From a virus, in the IMG/VR virus record IMGVR_UViG_3300037341_000028, positions 1-48,856 of that record: a DNA stretch of 48,856 nt, one strand, 5' to 3'. Positions 1 through 48,856 of the stretch are shown here, piece by piece (within the stretch, counting starts at the first letter, position 1; every line of letters begins with the position of its first letter). The notes below the pieces were generated by a model, which had not been told where the DNA came from, searched no databases, and saw only the letters and a list, made by a program, of their open reading frames with translations. The position numbers and the translations under genes were made by a program.

Positions 1-120
1 CCGAACCCACATAACGATCAACACCAGAAGCAGCGGCACAATCGACACCCAGTGCCGCTGAAACATTTGCATTTCGGTTGCCTCTGGATTGCGTATCCAG
101 TCTGCCAGGATGATGAGTGC
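1..120. repeat. Left copy of 120-base terminal direct repeat
   Basis: Identical to the last 120 bases of the window (48737-48856). The repeat falls inside a small gene that becomes intact when the ends are joined, so it most likely marks the overlap of a circular assembly rather than a packaged terminal repeat. The unit genome is then 48,736 bases. Confidence 0.95.
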
Positions 121-2070: not shown

Positions 2071-2215
2071 CGCGTGCAGGCTCCTGTAGTCTCATCTGCC
2101 CCTCGGGCGGTGCGGGCGGCGCTGGTTTTAACGCCGCCATTTGTGCCCTGAGCGCCTGGAGTTCTGCGAGTATCGCGTCCAGACGCTCATCAGTGCCGTT
2201 TGTTGCGGGCTGCAT
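1994..2215 (-). CDS. Small protein after the major capsid gene, unknown function
   Basis: 73 residues, started by an ATG that shares a base with the stop of the capsid gene (TAATG), so translation is probably coupled. Residues 8-30 are a leucine- and alanine-rich amphipathic helix (RLDAILAELQALRAQMAAL), then a Pro-rich hinge (PAPPAPPEG) and a basic, disordered tail rich in Arg, Asn, Ser and His. It overlaps the next gene by 77 bases in a different frame, which lowers confidence a little. No family is recognised; a coiled-coil accessory of the head is possible. Confidence 0.6.
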   Translation of the reverse strand: MQPATNGTDERLDAILAELQALRAQMAALKPAPPAPPEGQMRLQEPARDGSNVRTRNNRRKSSPSGTEGHGHD

Positions 2216-3387
2216 TACGAGCCGCTTCCGTTACTAGCCACCGTGCAGCGGAAGTCCGCCAATTGTCCACCAAAGACGTGCATCACGCCCCACTCGTAAC
2301 TATTGCTGTCGAACGAACCAATGGGGATTTCAGTGTTGCCCGTCAAACTCACGGCGTCCGGTCGGCGACGGAAGATGGCAGGCGCGCCTCCCAGAAGCGA
2401 CAGGAAGCCCACTTCAATCGCCGGACGTCCGCTTGTGGGCGACGCGAACAGATACCAGGACGTATCACCGTTGCTGTCGGCAATGTACGGCAGCCACGGG
2501 TTAACCACAATCTGCGTTTTGTTCGCCATCCAGTTTGCGGTAACAATCCGCTGCTCATCCGCAGGAGCAGACACAGCACCCTGGCCCACCAGGCCGATCT
2601 CCAGTTGTGTCGCGTTGAGAATGTTGCGCGCTGTGATCTCCAGTGCAGGCGGCACCACGAGCGTCACGGCATCGATGAAAATTGGCAGGCCATTCTCGTC
2701 GGTTTGATTTTTCAACACCTGGTATGCAGTCTGGAGTGCGCTGATCGAAAGTTCCGGGTTGCTCGTGACCACGTTGTTATTGGTTGCGTTGTAGACAGCC
2801 GCGAGCGGCCCCGACGTACCTGCGTACAATTCAGTCACGAACTTCTCTTCACTCCGACGGGCGCCTTCTGCGAGGCTAGTGGGCAAAATGTCAAACGCAC
2901 CCAGATCGTCATTAACCAGCGTTTCCATCGTCATCTGAACTTTGCCGACATATTTCTTGACGGCATAGTCGGCAAGTTCACGATCTTCCACGGCCCTATA
3001 GCCCACGCCGGTCGTGCCTTCGGGCGCCTCTACCAGGAGCTGATTACCTCCAAATGTAGCAAGCGTCTTGACATTGCGAAAATCGGGCACCATGCGTTGT
3101 TGGGCATAGGTCGTCCAGTTTGTACCGTATACCATATACGCAGAGGCCAAGCGACGCGAGAGAATATCCCCAAACAGATTGGGAAAATCACTCGTGCTCA
3201 TTGCCTCACGAAGCGGGATGCGCGAGCGGCGTGCTTGCAGATCGTTCAGGTACGTTTGTGCTTCAATGAGTTTTTGTTTGTATTCGGTTGTGTTCCGGTT
3301 AACCTGTGCGTGTTGGCGTGCCAACGCTTCAAATGTCGCCACGTGTGCATTGTTAGCCTCCATCAGGCCCGTAAATTCAATACTCAT
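2215..3387 (-). CDS. Major capsid protein (HK97 fold expected)
   Basis: 390 residues. Residues 10-58 form a helical, charged delta-domain-like region, followed by REAMSTSDFPNLFGDILSR, the start of the shell domain in this capsid family. Later segments VGYRAVEDRELADYAVKKY (spine strand), MTMETLVNDD, a helix with ARRSEEKFVTEL, and LVVPPALEITARNIL are typical of Mu gpT/HK97-like capsid subunits. It directly follows the protease-scaffold gene and precedes connector genes, which is the canonical order. About 415 copies would form a T=7 shell if the genome fills an ordinary head; that number is general knowledge, not seen here. Confidence 0.85.
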   Translation of the reverse strand: MSIEFTGLMEANNAHVATFEALARQHAQVNRNTTEYKQKLIEAQTYLNDLQARRSRIPLREAMSTSDFPNLFGDILSRRLASAYMVYGTNWTTYAQQRMVPDFRNVKTLATFGGNQLLVEAPEGTTGVGYRAVEDRELADYAVKKYVGKVQMTMETLVNDDLGAFDILPTSLAEGARRSEEKFVTELYAGTSGPLAAVYNATNNNVVTSNPELSISALQTAYQVLKNQTDENGLPIFIDAVTLVVPPALEITARNILNATQLEIGLVGQGAVSAPADEQRIVTANWMANKTQIVVNPWLPYIADSNGDTSWYLFASPTSGRPAIEVGFLSLLGGAPAIFRRRPDAVSLTGNTEIPIGSFDSNSYEWGVMHVFGGQLADFRCTVASNGSGS

Positions 3388-5186
3388 TATCGCACCCCCC
3401 GCGCTGCAATTTTGGCGCGCTGTTCATCCATGCCGCTCACCCGAAACGCCTCCTCAAGTTTCGCTTCAAGATCGGCGTCCGTGAGCACAGCAGGCGCGCT
3501 AGTGCCCATCCCGCGAATAATGCCCGATGGCGCGGCTTCTGCCAGTTCAACCCAGGCCACGTCGCTCGCCTCTTTGATGTGCTTGCTGAACTCGGTGTAG
3601 TCGATTGCCATACCATCCTCGGTAAACGGGATGGTGCGTTCCAATTCACGCGACAATCGGGCGACCGTGCGCTGTGGCAGGTTGCTGTCCAGGCGCTCCT
3701 GAATATAATGCCGTGCCTCAGTCAGCAGGCGCGCCTGTCGCTCTGCCTTCAGCGCCTCTTCCAGTTCCGTTCGCACATTGACATGTGCCTGATTGGTTTC
3801 CTCCAGACGGGCAAGCCGCTCCTGGAGTGCCGTGAGTTCCTCTGGTTTCACTTTGCCCCTCCGGACTTTTTCAGTTGGTTTATCCTGGCGCCCTTCCACC
3901 AGGCGCATGACATTTGTGCCATCGTTTGTGTGCGCTTCCATCAGGCGCGCCACTCTTCCGCCCGCGCCTGCACGCGTGACGAAATCCACACTATCGGCCC
4001 TGATTAACTGCTCAATAATGCGACCCTTGCGCCCATCCACCTCGCCAGTGCGGTATGCACCGTGAGCGCGAATGGATACGTCCAAATCCTCGCCAATAGC
4101 CGCAATGAGCGGGCGATGATTGTTGTAGTATTCGATATCGGCATACAGGCCGTCATCCATCCACACCGCGTCACTAGCCAGTTTGCCTGCCAGATCGCGG
4201 ATGTCGCGTTCGGGCCGTTCGGCTTCCTCGGTTTTTGTCGGGTGATTAAGATACAGGTGTGTGCCAGCCGTGAACACGTTCGGCCCGTCGCGGCGCAACA
4301 CTTCTGCCGGATAGTAGCCCATAGCGCCCCAGCCAGGCGTGATGATGCGGATGAGGGCGCGCCCGTTGCGCTCCTGCTCGCGCAGTTTCGTCTCGGCCAG
4401 AAACGACGCCTCTTCCATCTCATCGTCTTTGTACGCCTCATCGGGCGTCATCTCGTCTATCATCTCTTGCAGCATCTTCATGGCGTCCATCACGCGCTGC
4501 ATGTTGCGCTTGTTGAGTTTGCGCCCCGCCTCCTCGATGGCGTTTTCCAGAGACGCGGCAGCCTCTTCCGCCTCGGCATAGGCATGGTCATTGCACACCA
4601 TGTCGTTTGCTGTCTCAAAGTCAAAGCGAGTGCAAATATCGTTCTGCCGAAACTCGCAATTCCCGCAACGCGCCCGCCCATCAGCGGCGCGATAGTTCGG
4701 CGCGTCTTCCTGCGCTTCAGTTGGCGTGCTTTCCTGTTCTCTGTCCATCTGTCTTGCTATCCTCTCCGACCATCGGCGCCCGGCATCGCCGCCCCACAAA
4801 TCCCAGGCAATGCGCCACGTCGTCGGCTCGCCATCTTCCAGGTCGTAATGCTTATCACGATTGGCGCCGTGACGGGCAAAGAACGAAACCATTCGCTGAA
4901 TGGTGTCTGCCGAGATGTTACGCCCGTTTGCCAGGTCACGAGCTCGCGCAATGCCGACGTCAGTGCCGCCGCGCCCATACTCGTCTCGCCAGTCCAGCGC
5001 ACGCTGTGCGGCGTCTCGGACGCCTTGCGGCGGCGTGTAACTCTCGGCTTCTCGCGACGTGACGTTGATGTCGAGAGCGGTTTTCTGATCTTCAGCAGCG
5101 GCGCGGCTGTCGTGCCTGCCCACGACCTCGCCATCGTCCTTGACGACGCACCACTCATCATCGCACTGGCGGACGGTGTAAGGCAT
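3387..5186 (-). CDS. Head maturation protease fused to scaffold, with extra N-terminal domains
   Basis: 599 residues from the ATG at 5186 (MPYTVRQC), placed three bases after the preceding stop. Four parts are visible. (1) A short N-terminal unit, residues 1-38. (2) A helical domain around residues 50-150 containing GRGGTDVGIARARDLANG and TTWRIAWDLWGGDAGRRW, known from capsid-associated proteins of several tailed phages. (3) A Cys cluster around residues 165-205 (CGNC...C...C.DH). (4) A protease-like domain around 265-420 with LNHPT and DVSIRAHG plus SVDFVTRAGAGG, giving the expected His and Ser of phage prohead proteases. The rest, from about 440, is a long charged coiled coil expected to act as scaffold. 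Catalytic assignment is by motif only. Confidence 0.75.
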   Translation of the reverse strand: MPYTVRQCDDEWCVVKDDGEVVGRHDSRAAAEDQKTALDINVTSREAESYTPPQGVRDAAQRALDWRDEYGRGGTDVGIARARDLANGRNISADTIQRMVSFFARHGANRDKHYDLEDGEPTTWRIAWDLWGGDAGRRWSERIARQMDREQESTPTEAQEDAPNYRAADGRARCGNCEFRQNDICTRFDFETANDMVCNDHAYAEAEEAAASLENAIEEAGRKLNKRNMQRVMDAMKMLQEMIDEMTPDEAYKDDEMEEASFLAETKLREQERNGRALIRIITPGWGAMGYYPAEVLRRDGPNVFTAGTHLYLNHPTKTEEAERPERDIRDLAGKLASDAVWMDDGLYADIEYYNNHRPLIAAIGEDLDVSIRAHGAYRTGEVDGRKGRIIEQLIRADSVDFVTRAGAGGRVARLMEAHTNDGTNVMRLVEGRQDKPTEKVRRGKVKPEELTALQERLARLEETNQAHVNVRTELEEALKAERQARLLTEARHYIQERLDSNLPQRTVARLSRELERTIPFTEDGMAIDYTEFSKHIKEASDVAWVELAEAAPSGIIRGMGTSAPAVLTDADLEAKLEEAFRVSGMDEQRAKIAARGVR

Positions 5187-5187
5187 T

Positions 5188-5592
5188 CTATTGGATGTGC
5201 CACACCGAGATTTCGGCGCCCGCGACACCTGCCGCCGATGCAACGCTACTCACGGCGTAGCCGAAGAAGACACCGTCAGTGTTGAGGTTGAGCGCGCTGC
5301 TTTCGGTGGCACTCTGCGTACTGTCGTAATAGATAGCGTCCCCTGCCACCACGGTCGTCTGCACGCGCCCATCATTCGGGCCGCTGTATGGGATGACGCG
5401 CAACGTTGCTACGTAATCCCCGAATAGTACAGTCGTGTCGGTTGCATCGTTCTGGCCGTCGCCTTCATCCGTGATTGCAACGCCGGTGATGCTGTTCCAT
5501 AACACCGGGTCGCCGCTGGCAGGCGTCGTCGGGTGCGTCACCGTCACCGACCGTCCATAATCGCTCAGGTACTCGGTAATGTTTGTTGCCAT
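5188..5592 (-). CDS. Capsid decoration-like protein (DUF2190 type)
   Basis: 134 residues from the ATG at 5592, chosen because GGGAGGG lies just upstream; a longer in-frame ORF begins at 5664 but has no ribosome site and would run through a terminator hairpin. The chain is all-beta, rich in Ala, Gly, Thr and Val, with GDPVLWNSITGVAITDEGDG and GDAIYYDSTQSA, the pattern of small trimeric decoration or head-fibre base proteins that bind the outside of the shell. It is the first gene of the capsid operon behind a consensus promoter and an attenuator-like leader. Confidence 0.65.
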   Translation of the reverse strand: MATNITEYLSDYGRSVTVTHPTTPASGDPVLWNSITGVAITDEGDGQNDATDTTVLFGDYVATLRVIPYSGPNDGRVQTTVVAGDAIYYDSTQSATESSALNLNTDGVFFGYAVSSVASAAGVAGAEISVWHIQ

Positions 5593-5611
5593 TCGTTCCC
5601 TCCCAGAGAAC

Positions 5612-5652
5612 AAAAAAAGCGGTGCACCCTCCCGAAGGAGAATGCACCGCTT
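5612..5652 (-). terminator. Intrinsic terminator in the leader of the head operon (attenuator candidate)
   Basis: Read leftward, AAGCGGTGCA and TGCACCGCTT form a perfect 10-bp stem around an inner hairpin, followed by a run of T. It lies between the promoter at 5712-5740 and the first capsid gene at 5592. A competing stem is possible: GAATGC (bases 5661-5666) pairs with GCATTC (5640-5645), which overlaps the 5' arm of the terminator. This mutually exclusive pair is the layout of an attenuator; no known ligand or protein motif was recognised. Confidence 0.85.
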
Positions 5653-5711
5653 ACGTTTCCGCATTCAGTGAATATATAAAACGCCTAAAGGTTCAAGCGT
5701 AGACTATCCTT

Positions 5712-5740
5712 ATTATAAGCGTGTAGGTATGGGTTGTCAA
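5712..5740 (-). promoter_or_regulatory. Perfect consensus sigma-70 promoter for the head genes
   Basis: Leftward TTGACA (5735-5740), 17-base spacer, TATAAT (5712-5717): an exact match to the consensus. The -35 box contains the stop codon of the upstream 72-residue gene. Expected transcription start is near 5705, leaving about 110 bases of leader before the capsid operon. Confidence 0.9.
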
Positions 5741-5955
5741 TATTTACTAATACAACATTCGATTTCGCCGCCATCGCGCCGTTCGCGCCTGGTGAGCAGG
5801 GTACGCGGGAGATCATAACGCCGTTCGATGAGCACCGCCAGTGAGATCACCTGTGGGCGAATGCGCTGCTCAGAGGTGGGTAGCAGTTGCGCGCATTCCA
5901 CAAGCGGTGGATGCAGCTTGAGCAGCGCCTCGCGGACCTTCTGTTGGTTATCCAT
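5737..5955 (-). CDS. Small helical protein, unknown function
   Basis: 72 residues, overlapping the end of the minor head gene by 8 bases. The chain is helical and basic (KVREALLKLHPPLVECAQLL, then RRYDLPRTLLTRRERRDGG) and ends in CCISKY. No family is recognised. Its stop codon lies inside the -35 box of the strong promoter for the capsid genes, so it is the last gene of the portal-side transcript. Confidence 0.65.
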   Translation of the reverse strand: MDNQQKVREALLKLHPPLVECAQLLPTSEQRIRPQVISLAVLIERRYDLPRTLLTRRERRDGGEIECCISKY

Positions 5956-20778: not shown

Positions 20779-20816
20779 AAAGCGCCTGTGCAGGTGATCA
20801 CCTGCACAGGCGCTTT
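20779..20816. terminator. Perfect 38-base palindrome between two replication genes
   Basis: Bases 20779-20797 are the exact reverse complement of 20798-20816 (arms begin AAAGCGCCTG, centre TGATCA). It starts 10 bases upstream of the stop-side end of the 239-residue gene's trailing gap and ends 14 bases before the ATG of the ERCC4-like gene. As RNA it is a strong GC-rich stem with short A/U ends, so it may act as a partial terminator or processing site in the leftward operon; as DNA it could be an operator or cruciform site. Confidence 0.6.
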
Positions 20817-22267: not shown

Positions 22268-22296
22268 ATTGTATCATACTATAACCGCTTTGTCTA
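22268..22296 (-). promoter_or_regulatory. Leftward early promoter
   Basis: Read leftward: TAGACA (22291-22296), 17 bases, TACAAT (22268-22273), each one mismatch from consensus. It faces away from the rightward promoter only five bases on (22302), so the two polymerase sites are back to back and could be controlled by one operator-binding protein. Confidence 0.8.
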
Positions 22297-22301
22297 GAGT
22301 A

Positions 22302-22330
22302 TTGACAAAATGAACATGAACCTTTACAAT
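22302..22330 (+). promoter_or_regulatory. Rightward early promoter
   Basis: TTGACA (22302-22307), 17 bases, TACAAT (22325-22330). The spacer contains the direct repeat ATGAAC-ATGAAC at 22310-22321, a candidate binding site for the XRE-type regulator encoded 40 bases downstream. The ATG codons within this promoter cannot be gene starts. Confidence 0.85.
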
Positions 22331-22369
22331 GGACGTGGACAGAGGGATGACAGGGAGAGGGGAGGGGAC

Positions 22370-22621
22370 ATGACGAAGGTTGTGAATAAGTTAAAAAAAA
22401 TTCGCCTCATGCGGTCGGCAGAGATGAATGTTCATCTGTCATTGTCAGCCGTAGCTCGAGAAATCGACTACAGCCGAACCAACTTATTTTATTTCGAAAC
22501 CAGGACAGATCGCATACCGACGGCTGAGATGCTGGCCCGTTTAGCGGATTTTTACGGCGTCGAGCCGGGCGCCCTGATTGGGTGGAACGAGGATATTGTA
22601 ACAGAGGAGACAGAACAGTGA
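22370..22621 (+). CDS. XRE/Cro-type helix-turn-helix regulator
   Basis: 83 residues from the ATG at 22370, behind GGGGAGGGG. Residues 8-75 form a lambda-repressor-like domain: KKIRLMRSAEMNVHLSLSAV, helix-turn-helix AREIDYSRTNLFYFET, then RIPTAEMLARLADFYGVEPG, which is the usual end of Xre/Cro domains. There is no C-terminal cleavage domain. As the first gene behind one of two divergent early promoters it is the best candidate for the lysis/maintenance switch or an early repressor. Confidence 0.85.
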   Translation: MTKVVNKLKKIRLMRSAEMNVHLSLSAVAREIDYSRTNLFYFETRTDRIPTAEMLARLADFYGVEPGALIGWNEDIVTEETEQ

Positions 22622-28969: not shown

Positions 28970-29154
28970 GTAAGCGCAAAAACGAAACACCAGAACAGCG
29001 AGCGCGCCGGCTGTACCTGAAGCGCCTGTCGCGCCAACAACGGAGCGACTATGCGCCTGTTGTTATTGGCAGCAACGGCAAACGCTACCGCCTGGTACGT
29101 AGGCAGCATAGCAAGGATGACCTGCACGGCGACGAAGCTCGCCGCATAGACTAG
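28966..29154 (+). CDS. Small basic protein, unknown
   Basis: 62 residues, ATG overlapping the deaminase stop (ATGA). Basic throughout (MSKRKNETPEQRARRLYLKR, then YAPVVIGSNGKRYRLVRRQH). A helix followed by a small beta hairpin; likely nucleic-acid binding. No family is recognised. Its stop is directly followed by a dispersed hairpin repeat. Confidence 0.6.
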   Translation: MSKRKNETPEQRARRLYLKRLSRQQRSDYAPVVIGSNGKRYRLVRRQHSKDDLHGDEARRID

Positions 29155-29193
29155 GCACATTCGCCTGCGTGGGCGTGTGCATAGATAGTATCC
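29154..29193 (+). repeat. Dispersed 40-base hairpin repeat, copy 1
   Basis: Matches bases 31459-31498 in 37 of 40 positions; only the three bases at 29166-29168 (TGC versus CAC) differ, and these lie in the loop or top of the stem. Arms GCACA and TGTGC enclose CGCC and GGCG. It begins at the stop codon of the upstream gene. The rest of 29194-29309 shows no convincing gene. Confidence 0.85.
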
Positions 29194-31458: not shown

Positions 31459-31498
31459 GGCACATTCGCCCACGTGGGCGTGTGCATAGATAGTATCC
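31459..31498 (+). repeat. Dispersed 40-base hairpin repeat, copy 2
   Basis: Second copy of the hairpin at 29154. Here CGCCCAC and GTGGGCG pair completely, with GCACA and TGTGC outside and a two-base bulge, making a 12-bp stem with no loop bases beyond the centre. It lies 18 bases after the stop of the RHH-like gene. Confidence 0.85.
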
Positions 31499-31632: not shown

Positions 31633-31662
31633 TTGACATATCGATACACAATCGTGTATAAT
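31633..31662 (+). promoter_or_regulatory. Sigma-70 promoter
   Basis: TTGACA (31633-31638), 18 bases, TATAAT (31657-31662): both boxes are perfect. It drives a unit of four small genes ending at the terminator at 32690. Confidence 0.85.
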
Positions 31663-32721: not shown

Positions 32722-32777
32722 TTGTACAGGATTGACACAACGTGTTATAATTGGCTTATAAGTTTGTTATAAGTTGT
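32722..32777 (+). promoter_or_regulatory. parC: parM promoter with three 11-bp tandem repeats (parC candidate)
   Basis: Three contiguous 11-mers at 32745-32755 (TTATAATTGGC), 32756-32766 (TTATAAGTTTG) and 32767-32777 (TTATAAGTTGT). They overlap the -10 region: TTGTAC (32722), 18 bases, TATAAT (32746), or TTGACA (32732), 19 bases, TATAAG (32757). In plasmid R1, ParR binds 11-bp direct repeats around the parM promoter to form the centromere and repress the operon. The same repeat length and place here support a parC function; only three copies are seen, against ten in R1. Confidence 0.7.
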
Positions 32778-32792
32778 TGTGAGGAGGGGTGT

Positions 32793-33845
32793 ATGCATGT
32801 CGTGTATGATGATGGGGCTGGATTGACAAAGGCAGGCATAGCGGGCAATGGAATGCAGGTCACGGCGATACCAGCACTGGTGCTACCCGTTGAGGCGGGT
32901 ATGGATGAGGAGTACCTATTGCGTTCTGATGTGATTGTTATCGGTCATAATCGTAATCAGTATCTTGTGGGCGATGCGGCCCGCGCACAGGGCGCCACTG
33001 CCTATGCCACAAGCAACTACCGCTACACGTCGCCAGATGCGCGCATCCGCCTCTACGCGGCGCTGTCCGAACTACTCCCGCCTGGAGAGCACGCCATTCG
33101 GATGGTCGCGGGGGCGAACGCGGAAGCATATCGCGCATTAAAACGCGATATTCAAGACTTCTTCACAGGCTCACACGAGTTCACGCGAGCGGACGCGAGC
33201 TACCGTGTGAATATCACAGACGTGCATGTGACCTCACAGCCGCGTGGCGCCGTGCTCTATTTCAGCGCACATACTCCTGCTGAACTGAAACAGGCACTCC
33301 AGAAGCGACCGCTCCATAGGGCCAACATTATTGGTATTGACGTGGGCACATTCACCACCGATTTGATCGCGCTCCGGCCCGAACGGCGCGCCGATGGCAG
33401 CAGTGAAATGCAAGAAATCTACCGGCGTTCTAAAGCGTTGCGGTTTGGCGTCCAGACGCTACGCAATAAGGTTGCCGAGTTGATCCAGCGATTGCAAGGC
33501 GCGCCGGGTCTGCCGGAACTCTGGGAGGTTGATCGGGCCATTGCAGAGCGGGTTGTGACCATTGACGGCAAGGATGAGAGCATCGCGCCTGAGATTGACG
33601 ACCTTCGTGATAGTCTCTGGGCACGCGCACATGAGGAGATACGTGCCCATTTTGAAGGTTTCTCAACGCATTATTTGCTGGTTGTCGGAGGAGGCGCAAC
33701 AGATACGACGTTCGGGCCGTCCATTCGTGCAACGTGGCACGGAAAACTGCCGATGGGAATGCCAGAAAAACACGCGCCACACGAGGCGCCTGTCAGGGGA
33801 TATGCAGAAATGGCTGTGCAGAAGTGGGGCCGTGACAATGCCTGA
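32793..33845 (+). CDS. parM: ParM-like actin, segregation ATPase
   Basis: 350 residues from the ATG at 32793 (GAGGAGGGG upstream). Actin-fold motifs are clear: phosphate 1 VYDDGAGLTKAG at 4-15, phosphate 2 IIGIDVGTFTTDLIAL at 179-194 and adenosine motif YLLVVGGGATD at 294-304. Length and motif spacing match ParM/StbA and related plasmid actins (about 320-350). These polymerise into filaments that push or pull DNA bound through ParR. The parR-like gene overlaps its end by 8 bases, and three 11-bp repeats precede it. Phage relatives such as AlpC move prophage DNA, an alternative role. Confidence 0.9.
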   Translation: MHVVYDDGAGLTKAGIAGNGMQVTAIPALVLPVEAGMDEEYLLRSDVIVIGHNRNQYLVGDAARAQGATAYATSNYRYTSPDARIRLYAALSELLPPGEHAIRMVAGANAEAYRALKRDIQDFFTGSHEFTRADASYRVNITDVHVTSQPRGAVLYFSAHTPAELKQALQKRPLHRANIIGIDVGTFTTDLIALRPERRADGSSEMQEIYRRSKALRFGVQTLRNKVAELIQRLQGAPGLPELWEVDRAIAERVVTIDGKDESIAPEIDDLRDSLWARAHEEIRAHFEGFSTHYLLVVGGGATDTTFGPSIRATWHGKLPMGMPEKHAPHEAPVRGYAEMAVQKWGRDNA

Positions 33846-48727: not shown

Positions 48728-48856
48728 CTACTTCCGCCGAACCCACATAACGATCAACACCAGAAGCAGCGGCACAATCGACACCCAGTGCCGCTGAAAC
48801 ATTTGCATTTCGGTTGCCTCTGGATTGCGTATCCAGTCTGCCAGGATGATGAGTGC
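48728..48856 (-). CDS. Second part of the junction-spanning small membrane gene (partial at the right edge)
   Basis: Same gene as 1-171: bases 48737-48856 repeat positions 1-120 and 48728-48736 hold its last codons and TAG stop. The copy is cut at the window edge. Confidence 0.75.
   Translation of the reverse strand, partial: ALIILADWIRNPEATEMQMFQRHWVSIVPLLLVLIVMWVRRK
48737..48856. repeat. Right copy of 120-base terminal direct repeat
   Basis: Exact match to bases 1-120; see the left copy. The length of 120 is compatible with an assembler k-mer overlap. Confidence 0.95.

Follow-up and report, generated by a model that had tools for sequence, protein, structure and literature searches.

How are the capsid genes of a phage transcribed when a consensus promoter in front of them is followed at once by an intrinsic terminator? 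The question is raised by a leader at positions 5612 to 5740, on the minus strand, of virus record IMGVR_UViG_3300037341_000028 (48,856 bases; the whole stretch is called the window here). We report a comparative analysis of this leader and read it, at about even confidence, as a conditional transcription terminator, that is, an attenuator-type gate, between the packaging genes and the capsid and tail genes. Relatives were found among public viral contigs from metagenomes by scans with the capsid and portal proteins; 14 distinct contigs cover the site and, with the window, provide 15 sequences for comparison.

Genome context

The first and last 120 bases of the window (1 to 120 and 48737 to 48856) are identical, so the genome is probably circular and complete at 48,736 bases. 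No DNA similarity was found between the window and known phage and plasmid collections, and the nearest capsid relatives in cellular genomes (Chloroflexota, Actinomycetota, and Bacillota) are about 40% identical. The leader lies on the minus strand, as do the late genes, which are arranged in the following order: terminase, a KilA-N gene, portal, three small genes, and a MuF-type head protein in the packaging part, followed by a 72-amino-acid gene (5737 to 5955), the leader, and the genes for a head decoration or cement protein (5188 to 5592; phrog_122, PF09956), the head maturation protease (3387 to 5243), and the major capsid protein (2215 to 3387). Given this order, the leader separates the packaging genes from the capsid and tail genes. 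It had been placed in front of the first head gene in the original prediction, which is not the case: it is preceded on the same strand by the terminase, portal, and MuF genes, and the gene behind the leader is the first of the capsid part instead. The 72-amino-acid gene, which had no match in protein family searches, ends at the upstream border of the variable site described below. A ribosome binding site region (GGGAGG, 5593 to 5608, read from the sequence) lies immediately 3′ of the T run of the terminator. A longer frame from an ATG at 5664 inside the leader, in frame with the decoration gene, was rejected as the start because it lacks a ribosome binding site and the ATG is absent in several relatives and out of frame in one (L002).

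Elsewhere in the window, divergent promoters at 22268 to 22330, with an HTH (XRE-like) gene at 22310 to 22621, likely mark the early/late switch region. An actin-like (ALP) protein gene of the plasmid segregation type is found at 32751 to 33845, and no integrase was recognized among the window proteins scanned. Together, these three features hint at a phage-plasmid or plasmid-like carrier state; the capsid genes would then be kept silent by a closed gate. A perfect 38-base palindrome (AAAGCGCCTGTGCAGGTGATCACCTGCACAGGCGCTTT, 20779 to 20816) lies between late genes.

Promoter, terminator, and leader RNA

The promoter (5712 to 5740) is of the sigma70 type, with exact TTGACA and TATAAT hexamers 17 bases apart, and its −35 box overlaps the TGA stop codon of the 72-amino-acid gene. 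This exact match, reported in the original prediction, is confirmed and exceeds chance, which would give 0.01 matches in the whole window; one further match is present at 31633 to 31662 on the plus strand. Two copies of a 40-base direct repeat, 95% identical (29154 to 29193 and 31459 to 31498), each lie shortly upstream of a strong plus-strand promoter (29310 and 31633, respectively). On the minus strand of the late region, no second promoter with at least 11 of 12 matches was found by a scan that other promoter types would escape. Since no other recognizable late minus-strand promoter serves the capsid genes, they would be reached only across the terminator.

The terminator (5612 to 5652) comprises a 16-pair hairpin (5652 to 5617) with a UUCG loop and seven T's (5618 to 5612). 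It is the clearest on the minus strand in the late region, where no other strong terminator was found, and the RNA predicted from 5705 to 5610 folds with a z score of −5.4 relative to dinucleotide shuffles. That a complete intrinsic terminator follows the promoter therefore stands as predicted; it is kept in 14 of 14 relatives, and the stem is followed by four to eight T's in 15 of 15 sequences. The promoter and terminator positions would yield a short leader RNA of about 94 nt (5612 to 5705), in agreement with the RNA of about 95 bases expected earlier in the absence of bypass.

In window-type leaders only, which account for 6 of the 15 sequences, the leader RNA has a 5′ hairpin (ACGCTTGAACCTTTAGGCGT, 5681 to 5700) and then a U/A-rich stretch. 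Among these six sequences, 2 of 37 positions in the transcribed 5′ part are variable, compared with 9 of 24 positions in the promoter spacer and discriminator (5 of 17 in the spacer itself) and 69 of 134 third codon positions; this low variation supports a function for the RNA sequence. Other relatives do without this 5′ part. Searches of Rfam gave no match at the gathering threshold in the window or its relatives, and tRNA searches gave no match.

The conserved block

A block consisting of CTGAAT, a GNRA hairpin, the terminator, the ribosome binding site, and ATGGC abuts the decoration gene in 14 of 14 relatives, with one copy per phage record in the seven records searched. More distant relatives, at about 40% capsid protein identity, are without it, and phage and plasmid collections yielded nothing similar. 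Block-like matches in 3 of 400 genomes from the phylum of a distant-relative MAG scored 33 to 34 bits, whereas true members score 73 to 93 bits; these matches resemble ordinary terminators. In the viral collection, two loose pattern scans at the DNA level gave mostly unrelated sites among the matches listed.

The GNRA hairpin of the window (5652 to 5663) has four pairs, TGCG-GAAA-CGTA. Its stem is 100% paired across the 15 sequences, and three of the four pairs change on both sides, with the variants TGCG/CGTA, TATC/GATA, TGTC/GATA, TGTC/GACA, and TTTC/GAAA, the last with a GCAA loop (TTTC-GCAA-GAAA). Counted together, this stem and the terminator form 19 pairs in 100% of the sequences, 5 of them changed on both sides. 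The covariation score is 0.267 versus 0.156 in shuffles, and 0 of 500 shuffles reach it, a comparison that overstates the covariation because the 15 sequences are related, largely from a few metagenomes, and not independent.

The original prediction proposed that GAATGC (5666 to 5661) pairs with GCATTC (5645 to 5640) in competition with the terminator arm. The pairing can form in the window, but it is broken in 5 of 15 sequences, its covariation is not above that of shuffles, its stability is −5.7 kcal/mol versus −28.7 kcal/mol for the terminator, and its pairs reach a probability of about 0.01 or less in folds of the nascent RNA. Pair counts across the 15 sequences and folding thus do not support it as a feature. 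Of the two stems for which covariation had been proposed as a check, the terminator is conserved with covariation and the GAATGC/GCATTC stem shows none above that of shuffles. The proposal that promoter and terminator make the capsid genes depend on read-through fits the sequence and the conservation of the terminator; its competing stem is what has to be given up.

Folding of growing transcripts yielded another structure, a predicted antiterminator hairpin at 5645 to 5670, in which CACTG (5670 to 5666) pairs with CGGTG (5649 to 5645) and encloses the GNRA hairpin, with a 2-by-2 internal loop (AA/AG) between the outer stem and the GNRA hairpin. The leader can still be called attenuator-like in the sense that an alternative hairpin over the 5′ arm of the terminator is predicted in 15 of 15 sequences, with a structure that differs from the one named earlier. 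This hairpin is the predicted fold of the nascent block at a probability of 0.79 to 1.0, computed with the full upstream RNA for L003, L009, and L010; a shortened upstream sequence gave another fold in L009 and L010, which is gone with the whole upstream RNA. Overall, 99.3% of the cells of this hairpin in the 15-sequence comparison are paired, and the fifth pair of the CACTG/CGGTG stem is missing in L010. Because the hairpin contains the foot of the terminator 5′ arm, the two structures are mutually exclusive. Covariation is uninformative for the outer stem, which does not vary except at its closing pair; in addition, 9% of random 7-mers would likewise cover CGGT. We regard the hairpin, as modeled, as a good candidate for an antiterminator element. 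ACTGAAT is invariant in all 15 sequences despite unrelated upstream sequence, whereas the following gene has 23 of 134 invariant third codon positions (17%) in the same set; the constancy of ACTGAAT is a stronger point than the predicted hairpin.

The exchangeable upstream site

The block is preceded by a promoter-like sequence in each relative, and these sequences differ. At least five unrelated promoter/RNA types occupy the site among the 15 sequences. In the window type, the −10 box lies 43 nt from the block, and the same promoter hexamers are found in five relatives, with unrelated promoters at the site in others. The second type, TTGACA-18-TATACT, is found in 5 of 15 sequences and lies 26 nt from the block. 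Just 11 nt separate the −10 box from the block in L008, which has almost no 5′ part, and extended −10 promoters (by eye) in L009, L003, and L010 precede RNA segments of roughly 110, 430, and 80 nt, respectively. An additional promoter-small RNA-terminator unit is found upstream in two relatives (L005 and L023), and small genes are present at the site in others. Since L014 combines the second promoter type with a window-type hairpin, block and promoter recombine. The site thus consists of DNA between late genes that differs or is absent in close relatives and has its own promoter, and we interpret it, from these comparisons, as a moron site at which promoters and structured RNAs are exchanged.

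Several individual cassettes can be described. The additional units (L005:2880-3090 and L023:4303-4507) precede a window-type leader and look unrelated to each other. In L014, a gene with LamG-like sequence (by eye; L014:10863-11537) lies in the variable site before the capsid genes. At L010:3780-3860, the extended −10 promoter and the terminator block are separated by a short segment that resembles a tRNA, CGCAACT...GGTTGCGACCA, and includes a T-arm. Two RNA-like modules of L003 (1576-1698 and 1819-2033) are 93 to 96% identical to parts of L367:7127-7470 (minus strand), where they occur in the opposite order; they have a tRNA-like T-arm (GGTGCAASTCC) and ACCA ends, with no Rfam match for the L003 modules and no ARAGORN match. 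L367 is a different phage, with a protease 47% identical over 101 residues, and its layout is alike in other sequence: a promoter-like TATAAT, structured RNA modules, a strong terminator, and head genes.

Proposed mechanism and related systems

A gate on capsid production is suggested because the stop signal and the competing fold are kept in 14 of 14 relatives while the promoter and upstream RNA are exchanged. Host-type RNA polymerase would start at the consensus promoter and, by default, stop after about 94 nt and release a structured short RNA. The emerging RNA is predicted to fold first into CACTG-AA-[GNRA hairpin]-AG-CGGTG, which would cover the foot of the terminator 5′ arm; if undisturbed, the terminator hairpin would displace this imperfect hairpin. 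A factor that holds the hairpin or modifies the polymerase would let transcription pass into the genes for the decoration protein, protease, major capsid protein, and tail, and the gate would likewise halt transcripts coming from the packaging genes. Such a stabilizing factor must be assumed because the alternative hairpin is much less stable than the fold that combines the terminator with the GNRA hairpin; we infer its action and timing, and with them regulated read-through, from the arrangement described. No antiterminator protein was recognized among about 40 window proteins scanned. Antiterminators of the Q, AlpA, or GafZ kind load on DNA in the promoter spacer; since these spacers are not conserved, a factor that acts on the conserved hairpin in the RNA is the likelier one.

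The arrangement resembles several known systems. As in attenuators, a promoter and an intrinsic terminator lie upstream of the first gene behind them. The lambda pR′/tR′ (6S RNA)/Q system, AlpA of P. aeruginosa, and GafZ of the Caulobacter GTA have a strong promoter and a promoter-proximal terminator before late genes, as found here, and make a short RNA by default with a large late or lysis operon behind it. AlpA- and GafZ-type factors load at DNA between −35 and −10 (PMC7969949, PMC11150451). In contrast, the spacers at this locus are unrelated among relatives, with no conserved loading element, and the conserved part is RNA beside the terminator; moreover, this leader lies inside the structural cluster and not at its start. 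No relative of Q, AlpA, or GafZ was recognized among the window proteins scanned, Q proteins being very diverse. N-boxB and HK022 put antitermination also use a small nascent-RNA hairpin before terminators, with a GNRA-like loop in boxB, but here one hairpin directly abuts the terminator; no boxA was seen by eye in the leader, and no N-like protein was recognized among the window proteins scanned. In the RAT attenuators of BglG, SacY, and LicT, an imperfect hairpin overlaps the terminator 5′ arm and excludes the terminator, as predicted here. These control sugar operons rather than phage structural genes, their sequence presumably differs from that of the leader hairpin, and the hairpin here has a GNRA loop. 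No PRD/CAT-type RNA-binding antiterminator was found among the roughly 40 window proteins scanned, although a host protein may supply this function.

Alternative explanations

The terminator may simply insulate the capsid genes from moron-site promoters, for instance during a carrier or lysogenic state, with no RNA switch and with read-through by a late polymerase made termination resistant elsewhere or by simple leakiness. A terminator that stays constant while upstream promoters, structured RNAs, and small genes are exchanged, and the further promoter-RNA-terminator units of two relatives, would fit such a role. It also has established precedents in insulating terminators and in processive antitermination of late operons (Tn916, PMC11658703; CcGTA, PMC11150451; AlpA, PMC7969949). 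Insulation does not account, however, for the invariance of ACTGAAT or for the covariation of the GNRA hairpin next to the terminator. Antiterminators that load on DNA do so between −35 and −10, and relatives differ in these spacers; we consider insulation possible but on the unlikely side. Less probable still is that the locus primarily encodes a small RNA that acts in trans, its 5′ part exchangeable and its 3′ end shared, with a secondary effect on the capsid genes. The model for this would be EcOnc01-03 (AgvB, AsxR) of E. coli O157 lambdoid prophages, which likewise combine a variable 5′ part with a conserved 3′ part that runs to a terminator, and which occupy a moron site of the late region (PMC4104026). 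All 15 sequences have a variable 5′ region and a common 3′ terminator, and the constancy of the window-type 5′ part given above would suit such an RNA, but L008 has almost no 5′ part and the constant part goes with the capsid gene rather than the cassette, unlike in EcOnc01-03, which lie behind pR′ and converge with other small RNAs, whereas this leader lies directly before capsid genes. That the hairpins are untranslated structure that stabilizes the capsid mRNA or aids its translation without stopping transcription is very improbable: their position immediately ahead of the ribosome binding site is the same in all relatives, but stabilizing hairpins need no T run such as the one behind every stem.

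The conditional terminator, our preferred reading, also accommodates the moron-like site. Lambdoid and P22-like morons are independently expressed late-operon inserts that differ in each relative, and the P22 ant moron is considered to influence read-through into the gene for the tailspike (PMC2629481). Here, by contrast, several cassettes look noncoding, and a constant terminator block stands behind them. A more specific and rather doubtful proposal is a phage-specific RNA switch in which the hairpin, with its invariant AA/AG internal loop and its GNRA loop, would bind a phage or host protein that opens the terminator and thereby times capsid production, and the site upstream would be a dock for interchangeable promoters and structured, partly tRNA-like RNAs, two of which recur in L367. 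Promoter-terminator control is known; what is new is its location within the structural cluster, an RNA hairpin adjoining the terminator, and the upstream exchange of promoters and RNAs.

If the gate operates as proposed, a terminator inside the structural cluster that controls the capsid genes would be a less familiar way of timing late expression. The variable site suggests that phages exchange noncoding RNAs as cassettes, much like moron genes. Should the short RNAs be made, these phages would supply a natural set of small RNAs that share the 3′ end and differ in the 5′ part.
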